A stretch of DNA of 64,000 nucleotides from Candidatus Cybelea sp. (GCA_036489315.1 DASXFZ010000044.1:1-64000); one strand, 5' to 3'; positions 7,128 through 15,156 are shown, numbered from the stretch's first letter. Translations and numbers: made by a program. Notes: generated by a model from the sequence alone, not told the origin.

Positions 7128-7141
7128 TAGGTCATTACCTA
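7128..7141 (+). promoter_or_regulatory. Palindromic operator TAGGT-N4-ACCTA
   Basis: The perfect-arm palindrome TAGGTCATTACCTA ends one base before the -35 TTGTCG. The same element, with the 4-nt core as its reverse complement, occurs at 10281-10294 in the same position relative to another propeller gene. Size and symmetry fit a NarL/LuxR-type dimer site centred near -43. Confidence 0.6.
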
Positions 7142-7171
7142 TTGTCGAGAGCGGCGCGTGCGGCATAGAAT
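7142..7171 (+). promoter_or_regulatory. Predicted sigma70-type promoter of the 7207 gene
   Basis: TTGTCG (7142-7147), an 18-bp spacer and TAGAAT (7166-7171) form a plausible promoter. Transcription would start about 30 nt before the ATG. The poor -35 fits activation from the adjacent palindrome. Confidence 0.55.
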
Positions 7172-7206
7172 CACAAGACTCAACACGTTAATCGGAGGCT
7201 ACCTGC

Positions 7207-8199
7207 ATGCCGCACCTCGGCCGGCGTTTTCCACTGTTCGTCGCACTCGTCTTGGTCGCGCTGACCGGTTGCTCCGGCGCCGGATCGATCGGTTCACAAA
7301 GCGCTCCCCCCGTTACGCCCTTGCGGTCGGGAGTCATCCGGCAACCCAAGCCGCCGCAGGCGCAGCCTGCGCGTACCGTACGCTCCGCCAAGATCGAGCG
7401 GGATCTCTTCGTCTCCGACGGGAGCGGGTCGGTGCAAGTGCTCGCGAATCGCAGCCACAAGAACGTCGGGCAGATCACCGGCGGTCTCAACGGCGCCGAC
7501 GGCGTCTGGGTCGACAAAGCCGGAAATCTCTACGTCGCGAACTACAAAAGCGCGCAGGTGACCGAGTACGCGCCGGGGAGTTCCTCACCCAAGTGCACGT
7601 ACTCGAGCGGTCTGGTCGATCCGATCACGGTCACGACAGACCACTCCGGTAACGTGTACGTCGCCGATTTCAACGATTTCTCCGATCCCGGCTACCTTTA
7701 TGAGTACGCGCAGTGCAGCAACACGGTGAAGAAGCGTTATACGGTGATACTCGGGCCGACGGGGGTCGCGGTCGACCGCCGTGGAGACATTTTTGTGATG
7801 GCGTGGGCGGAGGGGTATGGCTATCTCCTCGAGTTCAAACGCGGGAGATCGACTCCGACCGCGCTGGGCGCCACGGTGAATGTTCCCGGCGGTCTCGTCA
7901 TCGATGCGAAGGGCAACCTCATCGCCGACGACCAGGAGGTCGCGTCGTACGAGCCGGGCTCGATCGATGTGATCGCGCCGCCCTACTACCAGACTTCGGT
8001 ACCGCTGATCCAGGGTATCGGCGATCCATATCACGTCGCGCTGAACAAGCAGCAGAACCGGCTCTTCAGCGCCAACGTGAGCTCCGGCACCGTGACGATC
8101 TACAGTTATCCGGCCGGTACGTTGCTCAAGACGCTGGGGCCCAAGCAAGGGCTTACGTCGGTCTACGGGGTGAGCGATTCACCAAACGCCGTATATTAA
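7207..8199 (+). CDS. NHL-type beta-propeller lipoprotein
   Basis: A 330-residue exported protein. The signal peptide ends in the lipobox LTGC (about residues 18-22). The mature part is a run of about 40-45-residue NHL-like strands with the recurring pattern G(V/L)-x-VD-x-xGNLYVA-x-Y/F, as expected for a six-bladed propeller. Such proteins bind ligands or polymers, or act as lactonase-like enzymes; no catalytic set is obvious. A GGAGG Shine-Dalgarno precedes ATG 7207. The promoter carries the TAGGT-N4-ACCTA element shared with 10362. The role is unknown; an envelope surface location is inferred from the lipobox. Confidence 0.88.
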   Translation: MPHLGRRFPLFVALVLVALTGCSGAGSIGSQSAPPVTPLRSGVIRQPKPPQAQPARTVRSAKIERDLFVSDGSGSVQVLANRSHKNVGQITGGLNGADGVWVDKAGNLYVANYKSAQVTEYAPGSSSPKCTYSSGLVDPITVTTDHSGNVYVADFNDFSDPGYLYEYAQCSNTVKKRYTVILGPTGVAVDRRGDIFVMAWAEGYGYLLEFKRGRSTPTALGATVNVPGGLVIDAKGNLIADDQEVASYEPGSIDVIAPPYYQTSVPLIQGIGDPYHVALNKQQNRLFSANVSSGTVTIYSYPAGTLLKTLGPKQGLTSVYGVSDSPNAVY

Positions 8200-8212
8200 A
8201 TTTCAGGCGCTT

Positions 8213-8287
8213 GCCTACTCGGCGGCGGCCGATTCAGGGATGGGTCACAGCCTCATTTCAGGATTTGCCCATCCTTGCGGAGTAGGC
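8213..8287 (+). ncRNA. Candidate structured leader with nested helices
   Basis: Two nested inverted repeats: outer GCCTACTC (8213-8220) with GAGTAGGC (8280-8287), inner GGATGGG (8238-8244) with CCCATCC (8268-8274), both perfect. A further small hairpin (CCGCC/GGCGG) follows before the STAS gene's ribosome site. This could be a cis-regulatory leader of the STAS gene or a complex 3' end of the propeller mRNA. There is no U-tract, so a simple terminator is unlikely. No known riboswitch class is recognised. Confidence 0.35.
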
Positions 8288-8344
8288 TGGTTGAAGGGAC
8301 CTCACGACCCCGCCCGGTTTGGCGGCCCAAGAGGAGCGAACAGC

Positions 8345-8728
8345 ATGCAGTGTGTGAACCTTCAGCCCACCAAGCCTGAGACGCTCGACGTTTTCGTCGT
8401 CGATCTCGTGGGAGAGTTCGATCTCTCGGAACGCGACCGTCTAATGGATGCCTTTGGAACCGCAAAGAGCGCGCGGCTCGTCTTCGCGAACCTCGCAAAG
8501 ACGTCGTACATGGATTCGACCGCCCTCGAGTGCTTGGTACACCTTCACGCGATGACCCGCATGCGCGGCGCCGCCTTCATTCTGCTGGGCGTGCAGGGAA
8601 CCGTGCAGCGCCTCTTTGAGATCTGCGACTTGGATAAGGTCTTCGACATCCGCAGCACGCTCAGCGATCTGGGGATGGCCTCCATTACCGCGCGCCGGCT
8701 TACGGTCGAATCGCGCGCGAGAGCCTAA
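8345..8728 (+). CDS. STAS-domain protein (anti-anti-sigma factor-like)
   Basis: A 127-residue STAS domain. Members act in partner-switching: the unphosphorylated protein captures an anti-sigma kinase and frees a sigma factor or other target. The phosphorylatable serine in the conserved turn is present (SYMDSTALECL), followed by the ILLGVQGTVQRLFEICDLDKVF strand-helix pair. ATG 8345 follows GAGGAG. No kinase or phosphatase partner is adjacent, so the partner would have to be encoded elsewhere. The leader may be structured (8213-8287). Confidence 0.85.
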   Translation: MQCVNLQPTKPETLDVFVVDLVGEFDLSERDRLMDAFGTAKSARLVFANLAKTSYMDSTALECLVHLHAMTRMRGAAFILLGVQGTVQRLFEICDLDKVFDIRSTLSDLGMASITARRLTVESRARA

Positions 8729-8741
8729 CCCGAGCCGTACC

Positions 8742-10235
8742 TTACGCTCGACGATCGAGCAGATCGTCAGTCAGCTGCCAGCGCGCGCGTAGATCCAAGC
8801 ACTCAAAGATCCTCGCAACGTGGTTCGCCACGGTCTTTCGGCTGATGCCGAGCTCGCGCGCGATCGACGGATTGCTGCGCCCTGCCGCGACGAGCCGCGC
8901 CACCTGGCGTTCGCGCGCCGAGAGGCCGGGCCGCGTCTCGTTCGGCAGCGGCGACGGCGCGTTCGGCCAGAAGGTTACGGGCGAAGCTTTGCCGATTGCG
9001 AGCGCGAGCTCGTCGACCCGCTCGCGGTACGCGCGCCGCCCGGTCAGGCGATAGCCGCAACGGTACGCCGCGAGCAGATGATGCACGGGCGAATACGAGC
9101 ACAGCGCGTCGACCGCCTCGTCCACGGCGGCGATTGCGCCGCGCCGGTCGCCAAGGGCCTCGAGCGCTTCGGCGCGGATGCGCAGCGCCGCGCCTTCGCC
9201 GCGAAGGTGAGCGTGCTGCCAGTCGCGTAACGCCGCGCCCGCGCGTCGTTCGGATTCGGCAAACCGCCCCGCCTTGAAGAGCACTCTGGCTTGCAGCGTG
9301 GTGAACGCGGGGCTCCATTCGAAGGTTCCCTGGTGATACTCGCTTCGCGCGCGCTCGAACTGCGCGAGCGCATCGGGAAATTTACCCTGGGCCGCGGCGG
9401 CGGCCGCGCCGACCATCGCGTCGTCAGTCGCGAGCCCCAAGTGGTAGGCTGCGTCGGAGAGTTCCTCGTGCAGCCAGCCGCCGTTGGTCGTCGGGATCGG
9501 TTCGTCGCAGTACAGCGTGAAGAAGAGCGTGTTGTAGAGCGCGTCGCAGGCGTCGGAGAGCAGACCGTTGGCAATGGCGATCGAGTACGCGCGGGCGTTC
9601 TCCGAAATTGCCAAGTGCACGCGCTGCGGAGCGTGCAAGTCGATCACGGCCCGTGTCGCTAACAAACGGGTGCGGGTCAGTGGCTCGTCTCCCGCGCAAA
9701 GGTCCAGGGCCGCTTCGGCCTGATCGCAAAATGCGAGCGCTTCGCCGAAACTGCCGGTCGCATAGCCGTGAACTCCGGCGCGTAACCAAGCTCGGGAGGC
9801 CAGCGACCAGAGGTGGCGGTCGCCGCTCAATCTTGCCAGCGCGTGCAGTTCGTGCACGGCCGCTGTCATCTGCGCCTTCTCGCGAGCGGTAAACGCGCAG
9901 CGCGCTCGCGCGAGCAGAAGTTCGCCGTGCGCCCGGCTCGTTACCGCGGGGCCCGCCCGGCGTGCGTGTTCGGCGGCGCTCGCGTAGTACGCGCGCGCCG
10001 AGTCGATGCGAGCGGCATCGCTCTCGACTTCCACCAGGCGGCTCAGCGCGGTAATCTTCGCGTTTTCATCGGAGACGGTCAGCGCGATCTGCGTCAAACG
10101 GGCGGCGGCGGCGTTAAGCTCGCCGGTACGGTAGAGCAAGTCAGCCGCATCGAAACGCGCGGAGAGGAGAGCCGCTCCGACGGTAGCCGGCGAGCGGGGC
10201 GGGTCGAGACGCGCCGGCCCGAGGATCATCCTCAT
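8742..10235 (-). CDS. LuxR/NarL-type transcriptional regulator with TPR-like sensor region
   Basis: A 497-residue protein. The first 420 residues are alanine/arginine-rich helical repeats in TPR style (paired helices such as RAYYASAAEHARRAG and FPDALAQFERARSEY). The last 65 residues are a LuxR-type helix-turn-helix (LSARERQVARLVAAGRSNPSIARELGISRKTVANHVARIF, read with its flanks). It lacks the MalT/LAL ATPase domain and a receiver domain, so the input is unknown. It is divergent from the propeller gene at 10362. The palindrome between them, repeated upstream of 7207, is a natural candidate for its binding site (inference). Confidence 0.85.
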   Translation of the reverse strand: MRMILGPARLDPPRSPATVGAALLSARFDAADLLYRTGELNAAAARLTQIALTVSDENAKITALSRLVEVESDAARIDSARAYYASAAEHARRAGPAVTSRAHGELLLARARCAFTAREKAQMTAAVHELHALARLSGDRHLWSLASRAWLRAGVHGYATGSFGEALAFCDQAEAALDLCAGDEPLTRTRLLATRAVIDLHAPQRVHLAISENARAYSIAIANGLLSDACDALYNTLFFTLYCDEPIPTTNGGWLHEELSDAAYHLGLATDDAMVGAAAAAAQGKFPDALAQFERARSEYHQGTFEWSPAFTTLQARVLFKAGRFAESERRAGAALRDWQHAHLRGEGAALRIRAEALEALGDRRGAIAAVDEAVDALCSYSPVHHLLAAYRCGYRLTGRRAYRERVDELALAIGKASPVTFWPNAPSPLPNETRPGLSARERQVARLVAAGRSNPSIARELGISRKTVANHVARIFECLDLRARWQLTDDLLDRRA

Positions 10236-10280
10236 CCAGGTTCTCGAAGTGGGATATCGAGTCCGTCCCCATATGGCCGC

Positions 10281-10294
10281 TAGGTAATGACCTA
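10281..10294 (+). promoter_or_regulatory. Palindromic operator TAGGT-N4-ACCTA, second copy
   Basis: TAGGTAATGACCTA ends one base before the -35 TTGTTG of the 10362 gene and sits 46 bp from the start of the divergent LuxR-type regulator. See 7128-7141 for the first copy. One dimer bound here could affect both directions. Confidence 0.6.
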
Positions 10295-10323
10295 TTGTTG
10301 CCGGGCCGTGAATTCTTTAGACT
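10295..10323 (+). promoter_or_regulatory. Predicted promoter of the 10362 gene
   Basis: TTGTTG (10295-10300), a 17-bp spacer and TAGACT (10318-10323). Geometry relative to the palindrome matches the promoter at 7142-7171. Confidence 0.55.
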
Positions 10324-10361: not shown

Positions 10362-11297
10362 ATGGTAACGCTTCGCCGCTCGCTCGCCGCAGGTGCCGCG
10401 CTCACGTCGGCGCTCCTAGTTGGGTGTTCCGAAAATAACGCATTGGTGCGGCCGTCCGTGCCCGAAACGATACCGGCCGTTCGAGCCGGCGAAGCAACAC
10501 ACCGTCCGATTGCCGACAAGTCAAAGCCGTACATCTACGTTGCCGACGACTACTCGAACACGGTGTTTATCTTCAGCGTCAAGGGCGGTTACGTCAGCCA
10601 GGTCGGGAGCATAACGCAAGGTCTCGCGGGCCCGCAGGGAATCGCCATCGATAAGGCCGGCACGCTCTACGTTCCGAACACCAACGCGGCGAACGTTACC
10701 GTTTATCCGGCGGGGCAGATGTCGCCCTCGCTTACCTTGAGCCAAGATCTCACCGTTCCGGATTTCGTTGCCGTCGATCGCAGCGGGAACGTCTGGGTCT
10801 CCAACGCCGAGGTGCCCGGCAGCGTCGTAGAGTTCCCGAAAGGCAGTACGACCCCGAGCACGGTCCTGACGACGGAAATCAACGGGCCTGAGGGCTTGGC
10901 CTTCGACGCGAAGGGAAATCTTCTGGTCGTCAACGCCGGGCTCGGCAGCGTCGCGGTCTTTCCGCCCGGTGCAACCTCGCCCTCGAGCACCTTCGGTTAC
11001 GGCCAGTTCTCGTACCCGCTGGGTATCGCGGTCGACAAGCGGGGTCTGGTCTACGTCTGCGACTTCGCGCAGGCCAACGTCGTCGTCTTCTCGAGCAAAC
11101 ACAAGTTCAAAAAGACGATCTTCACCAACCTCGATTCCGGTCCGATCGCCTTTCGCGACAAACTCTTCTACGTCGGCGGATCGGACTTGAGCACCGTGCT
11201 CGACTTCCACGCGAACGGGAAACCGGGCGTGATACGGATTCACAACAACTTGCTCTCCGCATTCGGTGTCGCCGCCGATCCTCCGACGCTTCCGTAG
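10362..11297 (+). CDS. NHL-type beta-propeller lipoprotein
   Basis: A 311-residue exported protein with a lipobox (LLVGC, cysteine about residue 22). It has six recognisable NHL-like repeats with the cores GPQGIAIDKAGTLYVPN, VPDFVAVDRSGNVWVSN, GPEGLAFDAKGNLLVVN and YPLGIAVDKRGLVYVCD, as in a six-bladed propeller. It is a paralogue of the 7207 and 26517 products. A GGAGG ribosome site precedes ATG 10362. It is divergent from the LuxR-type regulator and probably co-regulated with 7207. Enzymatic activity cannot be inferred. Confidence 0.9.
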   Translation: MVTLRRSLAAGAALTSALLVGCSENNALVRPSVPETIPAVRAGEATHRPIADKSKPYIYVADDYSNTVFIFSVKGGYVSQVGSITQGLAGPQGIAIDKAGTLYVPNTNAANVTVYPAGQMSPSLTLSQDLTVPDFVAVDRSGNVWVSNAEVPGSVVEFPKGSTTPSTVLTTEINGPEGLAFDAKGNLLVVNAGLGSVAVFPPGATSPSSTFGYGQFSYPLGIAVDKRGLVYVCDFAQANVVVFSSKHKFKKTIFTNLDSGPIAFRDKLFYVGGSDLSTVLDFHANGKPGVIRIHNNLLSAFGVAADPPTLP

Positions 11298-11302
11298 TAA
11301 CG

Positions 11303-12526
11303 CTAGCCCGAGGTCTCGCCCGCGATCCACTGATTGTTGTAACGATAGAGCTCGTGTACGCGCGTCTCATTGTCGAGATAGAAGACGTGCTGAGCCTGGC
11401 CGTCGTCGTAGTACGCGGCCGAGTTGCCGGATAAGGGGCTCGCCGTGCTCAACGGCGGCGTGGCTCCCGAGCCGGCGGAGAAGCTGAGGGTCGTGTTGCT
11501 CCAGCCTCCGCTGTTGTGGTAAAGCTCCTGGATGTCGTTGTTGACGTCGATGTAGATCACGTGGTGGCTCTGCTCGTTTTCGCACGCATAACCGACGAGC
11601 GCCGTGTTGACGGCCGGCCCTGAGGTCGAGATCGTGTGATCCGGCTGCCAGCCGCCGTTTCCCCACCACAGTTCGTGCACCTTATCGTCGTCGCCGAGAT
11701 AGACCACGTGCAGCGTGTCTTCGTAGGCGCAGGCGAACGTTGCCAGCGGCGCGTTTGCGGCCGGCGGCGCGGCGTTCGTCGCTTCGCTCAAGTTATTGCC
11801 GCCCCATCGGCCGTCGTAGAAGTACAGCTCGCGAATCGTGTTGTCGCCGGCGATGTAGATGACGTGCTCGGAGTTTTCGCGTTCGAACATCGTCGCCGCG
11901 AGCGAGATGTCCTTGAGATTCGGAGCCAGCACGCCCGTATAACCGGTGTCGGCGGAAAGGTTGTTCGATTTCCACAACGGACCGCCGCGAACGTTGTCGT
12001 ACTGGCCGGCAATCCAGTAGAGCTCCCAGACGTTGCCGTCGGCACCGACGTAGACGATGTGCTGCGACTGCTGCGATTCCCAAGCATAGCAGGCGATGCT
12101 GCTGCCGCTGGCCGCCGGCGGCGCGCCGGTGCGTTCGGTTATGTCGGGGAAGAGCGCGGCCGCTAACGACCCGCCCGGGAGCCAGCCCGGCGGCGAATAC
12201 GTGCTGTCGTCGAGCGGGTACGGCAGCGCCTGAATGTGATTGTTCTGGTCGATATAGCACAGAAAGAATCCGGCCATCGCTTCGAACGTGTTCATCGCGA
12301 TCGGACCGTCGCCGCGCGGACCGGCGCCGGCACGCGGAAACGGCAGCGTGAGATTCGCCTCGGACTGCCATTGCCCGATGAGGTCGATCGTCTGCCAGGG
12401 AGATCCGGGATTGCCGACTTCAATAAACTCATAGAGTAGCTGGTCGCTGCCGACATATCCGAACGCCTGCGTGCCGTTCGCTGCGACGTAGCAGCTGGCG
12501 ATCGTGGTGGTATTCGCGGGTTGCAT
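11303..12526 (-). CDS. Seven-repeat lectin-like beta-propeller (PLL/AAL-like)
   Basis: A 407-residue protein built of seven repeats. Each has the core HV(I/V/F)Y(I/V/L)-x-x-(D/N)-x-x-(I/V)-x-EL(Y/W) followed by a W-containing strand and a less regular 20-30-residue linker. The pattern resembles fucose-binding propeller lectins (fungal AAL; seven-bladed Photorhabdus PLL). Aromatic and acidic residues at blade edges could bind sugars. There is no signal peptide or lipobox, unlike the other propellers here, so it may stay in the cytoplasm or leave by another route. It is divergent from the XRE-ATPase regulator at 12690. Confidence 0.75.
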   Translation of the reverse strand: MQPANTTTIASCYVAANGTQAFGYVGSDQLLYEFIEVGNPGSPWQTIDLIGQWQSEANLTLPFPRAGAGPRGDGPIAMNTFEAMAGFFLCYIDQNNHIQALPYPLDDSTYSPPGWLPGGSLAAALFPDITERTGAPPAASGSSIACYAWESQQSQHIVYVGADGNVWELYWIAGQYDNVRGGPLWKSNNLSADTGYTGVLAPNLKDISLAATMFERENSEHVIYIAGDNTIRELYFYDGRWGGNNLSEATNAAPPAANAPLATFACAYEDTLHVVYLGDDDKVHELWWGNGGWQPDHTISTSGPAVNTALVGYACENEQSHHVIYIDVNNDIQELYHNSGGWSNTTLSFSAGSGATPPLSTASPLSGNSAAYYDDGQAQHVFYLDNETRVHELYRYNNQWIAGETSG

Positions 12527-12689: not shown

Positions 12690-15156
12690 ATGCGCGGTGA
12701 CCAGGCGCAGGCGCCCGCCTCTTCGAGTTTCGGAACGCTGCTGCGGCACCATCGGCTGGCGGTTGGGCTCTCCCAAGAGGCGCTCGCGGCGCGCGCTCAG
12801 ATGAGCACGCAGGGAATCGGGGCGCTGGAGCGGGGCGACCGTACGACGCCGCAGCGCGCAACGCTCACGCTCTTAATTTGAAGCGCTGGGGCTCGACCCC
12901 GCCGAGCGCCAGGCCTTCGAAGCGGCGGCAGAGCGCCCCAAGGCACTGCGCGCAGGCGACGGCCGCGCAGCAAAGACGCTGACTTCGGCCGGCCATGAAT
13001 CGGCCGCTTTCCACAACTTACCGCGCCAGCTGACGGCGCTCATCGGACGCGAGGAGATCCTGGCCGAGGTCGCGGCGCTGATCGAAGAGTCGCCGCTCGT
13101 GACGCTCGTCGGGCCCGGCGGCGTTGGCAAGACGCGCATCGCACTGCAGGTCGCTTCAAATGTACCGGATCGGTTCGACGACGGCGTCTGGCTCGTCGAA
13201 CTTGCGCCGGTTTCAAGCGGCGAGTACCTGCCGTCCACGGTCGCGCAGATTCTGGGCATCTCGCTGCACGGCGCCGGCGATCCGCTCGAATCGCTCGTCG
13301 AGAACCTTCGCTTGAAAAATACGCTGCTGATCTTCGACAACTGCGAGCACTTCGTGCGCGAGACGAGCCGTGTCGTCGCGGCCATCCTGCGCGGCGCCGC
13401 GCGCGTGCGCATCGTCGCGACGAGCCGTCAGAGCCTCGGCATCACCGGCGAAGCGACGTTTCGAATTCCTTCGCTCCCGGTTCCGGATGCAATCGCGCTC
13501 TTTGCGCAACGCGCCGCCGCCGCCGACGATCGCTTCGAGCTCAACGACGATAACGCCGCGGCCGTCGGCGAGGTTTGCCGGCGCCTCGACGGCATTCCGT
13601 TAGCGATCGAACTGGCCGCCGCCCGCACGACGATCCTCACGCCGCGCCAACTGCGCGATCGGCTGGACGAACGGTTTCGGCTGCTTACCGGCGGCGGTCG
13701 CGATGTGCTGCCGCGCCAACAGACGCTTCGCGCTGCGCTCGACTGGAGCTACGACTTGCTCGATGAAGGCGAACGCGTTCTCGCTCGACGCCTCGCCGCG
13801 TTCGCGAACGGCTTTGCGCTCGAAGGCGCGGTTGCGGTCGGCGGCGGCGACGACGTAGATTATGCAGGCGTGTTCGACGCGCTCGCGTCGTTGGTCGATA
13901 AATCGCTCGTCGCGGCTGACGACGACGGCGGCGCGCGACGCTATCGAATGCTCGAATCGACCAAAGCGTACTTGCGCGAGAAACTTGAAGCCGCCGGCGA
14001 GCTTGCGACCTCTTCGCAGAAGCATCTACAGTACTTGCGCGATCTCTTTGCGGCTGCACGCGCGTGGGCCGAGCGCAGCGGCAGCGCGGCGGAACTTAAC
14101 GCACTCGTGGTAGCGGAGCTTGAAGACGTGCGCACGGCCCTCGCCTATGCCGCCGGCGCCGAGGTGCTGATCGGTGCCCAGCTGCTCGTCGCGATCGGCG
14201 ACCGAACGGATCGAATCGGCCTGACGGCCGAAGGTTTGGCGCTCCTCGAGCGCTTCGCTCGGCTCGTGCCCGCTGACGAACGGGTGCGCAAGTCGCAGCT
14301 CTGGACGGCCATTGCGCGTACGTCTCGTACGGACCGCGTACGGGCGTTCGAGGCGATCTCGACCGCACTTGCCTTCGCCCGAGCTGCGGGCGATGACGCG
14401 ACGCTCGCCGACGCGCTCCTCGTATACGCCGGCTCACTCATTCACCTAGCGAGGTTCGAGGAGGCGGCCGCGGCGATCGAGGAGGCGGCGACGCTCGCAT
14501 CGGCCGACGACGTCTGGCCGCAGCTGCGGATTCTTTTTACGAAAGCGAACGTTAGCGTCGCGATGGGCGACCTCGATGCCTCGGCCGAGGCCTACGAACA
14601 GCTCTGGGGGGCCAATCGGCGGCTCGGGAACACAATGCAGGCCAACGGCATCGCGGTTTCACTCGCCGATATCCAGCATCAGCGTGGTAAAACCGCGGCC
14701 GCCGTGACGCTCGCCTACGACGTGCTCGGCGCGTTGCGCGCGGACCGCGATCGTCAAGCGCTGGTGGGCGCGCTTGCGAACCTCTGCGGCTATCTCGTCG
14801 CGCTCGATCGATTGCCGGAGGCGCGCGCCGCAGCACTCGAAGCGTTCGACAGCAGTTCCGAGCGCGAACGCAGCGGCATCTTCGTAACCGACGCCGTAGA
14901 GCACGCCGCGCTGGCCGTCGCCCTCAACCACGACCTCGAATCCGCCGCTCGGCTAGCCGGCTACTCGGAAGCCGCGTTCCAACGCGTCGGCTACGAACAC
15001 GAGTACACCGAACGCGCAACGCGAACCCGCCTCGAATCCCTCCTGCGCGAAAAGCTCACCCCTACCGAATGCGATTCGCTCCTATCGGCCGGCGCCGCGC
15101 TCTCAACCGAAGCCGCCATACGCTTAGCGATCGAGAGTGTGTCACGCGTGTCCTGA
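12690..15156 (+). pseudogene. XRE-type regulator with NB-ARC-like ATPase and TPR-like region, frameshifted
   Basis: Two frames together make one COG3903-type regulator of about 820 residues. Residues 1-63 are an XRE helix-turn-helix (LLRHHRLAVGLSQEALAARA). The first frame stops at TGA 12879-12881. Removing one T from TTT at 12877-12879 restores reading straight into LLIEALGLDPAERQAFEAA and on to the ATPase, whose frame is open from 12880. Walker A is GPGGVGKTRIAL, Walker B NTLLIFDNCEHF, then the LRAALDWSYDLLDEGERVLARRLAAF segment and C-terminal helical repeats. The event is a sequencing error, a mutation or a slippage site. If real, the ATPase part could start at GTG 13099 without its DNA-binding domain. 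The stop codon lies inside a dispersed repeat. Confidence 0.8.

Follow-up and report, generated by a model that had tools for sequence, protein, structure and literature searches.

A 14-bp palindrome as the predicted operator of a GerE/LuxR-type regulator group beside exported beta-propeller genes in Eremiobacterota

The stretch of DNA analysed here, 64,000 nucleotides from a Candidatus Cybelea genome (the window), carries two copies of a 14-bp palindrome, each immediately in front of a promoter-like sequence that precedes a gene for an NHL-repeat propeller lipoprotein. A LuxR-type regulator is encoded between them, which raises the question of whether the palindrome is the operator through which regulators of this kind control exported propellers, and in which direction such control would act. 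An earlier note on this DNA had proposed a dedicated module of one regulator and two propeller promoters. The features concerned are as follows, with coordinates counted from the first letter of the window.

7128..7141, no strand: palindrome 1, TAGGTCATTACCTA, predicted operator upstream of NHL1
7142..7147, + strand: -35-like hexamer TTGTCG, abutting palindrome 1
7166..7171, + strand: -10-like hexamer TAGAAT, 24 nt past the end of palindrome 1
7207..8199, + strand: NHL1, 330-aa propeller lipoprotein with NHL repeats (PF01436) and a lipobox
8240..8728 (start maybe ATG at 8345), + strand: protein with a STAS domain (anti-sigma-factor-antagonist type), encoded after NHL1
8742..10235, - strand: regulator, 497 aa, predicted TPR superhelix (residues 16-415) and GerE/LuxR-type HTH (438-489)
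10281..10294, no strand: palindrome 2, TAGGTAATGACCTA, predicted operator in the gap between the divergent regulator and NHL2 genes
10295..10300, + strand: -35-like hexamer TTGTTG, abutting palindrome 2
10318..10323, + strand: -10-like hexamer TAGACT, 23 nt past the end of palindrome 2
10362..11297, + strand: NHL2, 311-aa NHL propeller lipoprotein (PF01436) with a lipobox

The description of the two sites in the earlier note, as palindromes with shared arms and an inverted core, is accurate in position and in sequence, since a check of the window shows TAGGTCATTACCTA to be the exact reverse complement of TAGGTAATGACCTA. The predicted -35 hexamers start at the very next base after each palindrome and are separated from their -10 hexamers by 18 bp (TTGTCG/TAGAAT) and 17 bp (TTGTTG/TAGACT), likewise as proposed. 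With the -10 hexamer taken as -12 to -7, the palindromes are centred at approximately -43.5 (palindrome 1) and -42.5 (palindrome 2), in agreement with the suggested position near -43. The downstream genes do encode NHL lipoproteins: PF01436 was matched above cut-off in both in a Pfam scan, and the lipoboxes LTGC and LVGC are present in the translations. NHL1 and NHL2 share only 32% identity, so the common site does not stem from a recent promoter duplication; NHL2 is 45% identical to the propeller of the orthologous pair in a congener. Palindrome 1 lies 3 kb away from the window regulator and is flanked on its other side by an alpha/beta-hydrolase gene and no regulator. The STAS gene 3' of NHL1 is possibly not part of the module, and a near-site in front of it (CAGGCGCTTGCCTA, 8204-8217) was rejected as its operator because its motif-scan score falls inside the background. 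Further along, a gene convergent with NHL2 (11303-12526, - strand) matched PF07938, the family of fungal fucose-specific lectins (E 2.5e-9), and 13099-15156 (+ strand) encodes a 685-aa NB-ARC/AAA-type ATPase protein, probably another large regulator.

Pattern and profile searches were carried out across the whole genome (G000; 3.09 Mb in 64 contigs). Matches to TAGGTN4ACCTA with at most one mismatch numbered 3 within the window against 0.20 expected, and the exact pattern occurs three times in the entire genome. The anticipated occurrence of further copies at propeller genes was borne out by this search: the third exact copy (C55:72246-72259) sits where a LuxR-type regulator gene and a propeller lipoprotein operon diverge from each other with about 80 bp between them, and the next-best variant, TAGGCAATTGCCTA at C48:47306, likewise separates a divergent LuxR-type regulator from a two-gene propeller lipoprotein operon, both sites being 22-24 nt upstream of the -10 hexamer of the operon. 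A 12-base form, TAGGTNATNACCTA, was found three times in G000 and not once in the other 98 genomes of the family. As a control, the reversed pattern gave 2 matches across all 99, a rate at which three copies in one genome have a probability of about 1e-6.

The widened pattern TAGGYNATNRCCTA is absent from 17 congeners and has five copies in G000, of which four lie at propeller promoters; TAGGYN4RCCTA occurs 2-6 times per genome. When the two window sites were excluded, four TAGGYN4RCCTA copies remained in G000, and two of these fell within the 200 nt counted upstream of its approximately 27 propeller genes (P ~2e-5). The annotations around the copy on C18 show no propeller match, and the copy on C59 was discarded as a propeller promoter site, its neighbour being an integrase-like remnant. 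Those one-mismatch relatives in G000 that were inspected lie mostly within coding sequence. No TAGG-type palindrome was found at the other propeller promoters of this genome, and a regulon of 4 promoters against approximately 27 propeller genes is too small for a general propeller regulator.

The spacing between palindrome and promoter is nearly constant. In all eight promoters examined, the best -10 hexamer among 35 scanned offsets lay 22-24 nt after the palindrome, which for the six promoters beyond the discovery pair has a chance probability of approximately 4e-7. The operator thus runs from approximately -50 to -36, where a class II activator would sit. TTGTYG abuts the site in the window-type promoters and follows it in four promoters overall; two other species have a TTGTCG-like hexamer after the site. 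Promoters facing regulators of an ATPase type (see below) have no recognisable -35, as activator dependence would predict. In two of these, the C55 and C48 propeller operons (L016:6150-6310 and L024:9300-9370), the start codon comes 5 nt after the predicted -10, and so the transcripts are probably leaderless. When a palindrome of at least 6/7 and a -10 hexamer at 22-24 nt were required together, 9 of 11 module promoters passed, compared with 1.3% of shuffled 200-nt stretches; the two failures, from G015 and G074, are explained by degenerate palindromes. Among the other propeller genes of G000, 3 of 21 passed, none with TAGG, and none of seven other related regulators did. When 545 kb surrounding 43 LuxR-type loci were scanned with the motif, scores above 13 bits were obtained only at six module sites, a result that speaks to specificity and not to discovery because the same six sites were used to build the motif.

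In the Pfam scan, the window regulator matched PF00196 (GerE/LuxR HTH; E 3e-14, residues 438-489) and gave weak TPR matches; no receiver domain, autoinducer-binding domain or ATPase module with Walker A motif was detected in that scan. Used as query in a protein search, it retrieved at E<=1e-10 only two other matches in G000, the DNA-binding domains encoded at the C48 (58%) and C55 (52%) sites. The C48 and C55 regulators are proteins of about 895 aa with an AAA_16 ATPase and are 53% identical to each other over almost their full length, and by BLAST only the DNA-binding domain is common to them and the window protein. Two architectures therefore occur in this genome, TPR-GerE in the window and the MalT/LAL-like AAA_16-TPR-GerE on C55 and C48. 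In a profile comparison, the window type aligned to the ATPase type over the TPR and HTH regions of the latter with a probability of 99.9, much of the signal coming from the HTH; because the alignment spans both parts, the window type looks like the ATPase type minus its ATPase. The regulator had earlier been described as lacking a known input domain, a description that needs revision in the light of structure prediction. An AlphaFold2 model (pLDDT 81.6) shows helical hairpins at residues 16-415, an all-helical TPR N-terminus, followed by the HTH at 440-496. By target-normalised TM-score, the best Foldseek match among those listed for the TPR part was domain III of MalT (1hz4; 0.68, rmsd 5.3), the Rap pheromone receptors being next among them (~0.6); many TPR proteins had better E-values yet gave poor global fits.

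Searches of 149 genomes of the phylum returned six DNA-binding domains at E<=2e-32, the next best standing at 8e-25. Three of these are in G000, and the others are found in a species of the same genus (G015:C7) and in two other genera (G076:C6 and G074:C21). Each of the six regulator genes diverges from a gene for an exported propeller, an NHL lipoprotein in five cases and a Vgb-like propeller in G074. The intervening gap contains the palindrome TAGGCACATGCCTA in G076 (L061), a related palindrome, TAGGTCATTACCCT, also given as CTAGGTCATTACCCTTGTCG, in G074 (L062), and a degenerate one, TAAGTAATTACGC, also given as CTAAGTAATTACGCTTGTCG, in G015 (L025); the sites in G015 and G074 are both degenerate, were placed in register by eye and fail the automatic palindrome test. 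The ATPase-type regulators, in which AAA_16 with a Walker A motif was found (C55, C48 and G076), all face a conserved two-propeller operon whose first genes are 49-55% and second genes 44-52% identical. In a tree of the DNA-binding domain (60 columns), the six are not resolved as a single clade.

A sister group comprises four tandem pairs of a regulator gene followed by a propeller gene, with 15-bp palindromes before the propeller gene and 22-23 nt from the -10 hexamer (TAGGCAAATTGCCCA in G015:C3 and G075, TGGGTAATTTACGCA in G076:C5 and TGAGTAGTTTACTCA in G016). Six related regulators (L064, L068, L069, L071, L073 and L090) have neither an adjacent NHL propeller gene nor a palindrome, and no such palindrome was found at L087 (G016:C30:16700-28700), where a sister-clade regulator lies between two propeller lipoprotein genes. 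A separate TPR-LuxR group with the helix TVERHVSSILSRLGLRSRWQI (L088-L100, e.g. L090:6013-7299) is widespread in genomes of the genus, and its loci contain no palindrome of the module type. The L090 regulator and its relative L069 are followed by a protein of approximately 1060 aa with an SGTVTD carboxypeptidase-regulatory-like start.

The reading that we favour, and consider probable, is that the 14-bp TAGGY-N4-RCCTA element is the operator of a small GerE/LuxR-type regulator group dedicated to exported beta-propellers and acting by class II activation. The computed support consists of the sites themselves, their genome-wide rarity, their strong tie to propeller promoters beside this regulator group and their fixed distance from the -10 hexamer. 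We infer that the adjacent regulator binds the site, that its effect is activating and that its TPR domain senses a ligand, a role for which the predicted fold makes that domain a plausible candidate. A regulator dimer would occupy both TAGGY half-sites around a centre at about -42.5 to -43.5, with input entering through the TPR superhelix, and the bound protein would recruit RNA polymerase to the propeller promoter. Where the two genes diverge, the regulator may also control its own promoter. In G000, three paralogous regulators would serve four propeller promoters, those of NHL1, NHL2 and two two-gene operons elsewhere. The dedicated regulator-propeller module of the earlier note thus stands as a pairing, which recurs in G000 and in three other species, but one regulator for two promoters is too simple, given three paralogs in G000 with near-identical operators.

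The same operator could serve the adjacent regulator for repression, with the propeller gene and the regulator's own promoter blocked until an inducer releases them. A single operator common to a divergent regulator-target pair is typical of local repressors, and the window promoters, with a fair -35 (TTGTCG, TTGTTG) at the site, might work without an activator. The sites, however, lie entirely before the -35 and keep a set distance of 22-24 nt to the -10, as expected of a class II activator, the AAA-type promoters have no recognisable -35, and regulators of the MalT-like and LAL kinds usually activate transcription. The position near -43 suits an activator best, and repression is, in our judgement, unlikely. 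A smaller chance still is left to binding by an unrelated global factor, or to the palindrome being part of an alternative-sigma promoter, the LuxR-type genes nearby then being coincidental. The lack of a regulator adjoining the NHL1 site and the TTGTYG after the site in four promoters would fit such a view, but the motif accompanies this group of DNA-binding domains and its strict form is absent from family genomes without the group. A global factor would also be expected to have more sites than the 2-6 per genome counted for TAGGYN4RCCTA, and the AAA-type promoters retain the palindrome and not TTGTYG.

Exact inverted repeats on both sides of the regulator gene could also be recombination sites of an invertible 3.1-kb segment. 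This idea was rejected: the likeness that extends past the 14 bp is direct and not inverted (TTGTYG after both copies), the other copies are single and occupy the same promoter position, and the genes immediately next to the two sites include no recognised recombinase gene, so that the probability left to it is negligible. Nor is there appreciable room for two promoters that are alike by chance. By our own estimate from composition alone, a 10-base pattern of this kind is expected on the order of once per 3 Mb, but coincidence is contradicted by the further copies at propeller promoters, by conservation across genera and by the constant spacing.

Speculatively, and with little confidence on our part, the module may be a closed sensing circuit in which the exported propeller acts on a compound outside the cell, by binding or processing it, and the resulting product is what the cytoplasmic TPR regulator detects. 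The operator and DNA-binding domain would then have been re-used with TPR-only and ATPase-TPR inputs, giving parallel, partly cross-talking circuits in Eremiobacterota. Propeller lipoproteins are abundant in these uncultured soil bacteria, as the approximately 27 of G000 illustrate, and the operator with its regulator group would open a first way into asking when some of them are produced. The regulon could be predicted from the sequence by itself, in a phylum where experimental data on regulation are almost lacking, and a pair of DNA-binding domain and operator kept over two regulator architectures would be a clean natural case for the evolution of LuxR-type specificity.

Palindromic sites near -42 are already known for LuxR-type activators. 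A literature search found no description of a LuxR-type regulator/exported propeller module or of TAGGYNATNRCCTA; by the literature searched, the dedicated pairing with propellers, the use of one operator by two regulator architectures and the occurrence in Eremiobacterota appear to be new. The targets resemble known families in having NHL repeats, or a Vgb-like propeller in one species, and NHL2 is also barely above the Pfam cut-off for the SdiA-regulated family (21.8 versus 21 bits), whose name reflects the possible control of its members by SdiA, a protein of the LuxR type; they differ in being Eremiobacterota lipoproteins with low identity to named members of the NHL, SdiA-regulated and Vgb families.

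As in MalT and the LAL regulators, the window regulator combines a C-terminal GerE/LuxR HTH with a predicted TPR superhelix near MalT domain III, and the C55, C48 and G076 regulators also carry the N-terminal AAA_16 ATPase with its Walker A motif. The window regulator is unlike them in having no ATPase module, the targets here are exported propellers and not sugar genes, and the site is a short inverted repeat, whereas MalT sites are direct boxes. The lux box is a palindrome centred near -42.5 that abuts or replaces the -35 element. The present palindromes resemble it in their position at the -35 edge, whereas they are 14 bp long and not 20 bp, and the regulator has no autoinducer-binding domain. 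The GerE consensus is TRGGY, which the TAGGY half-site fits. Like the sites of GerE, NarL and ComA, the operator is an inverted repeat of the kind read by a tetrahelical HTH dimer, and ComA, of the same HTH family, recognises an inverted repeat of hexamers with a 4-nt spacer (PMC4797271). The window regulator differs from NarL and ComA in having no receiver domain and from GerE in having a large TPR input domain.
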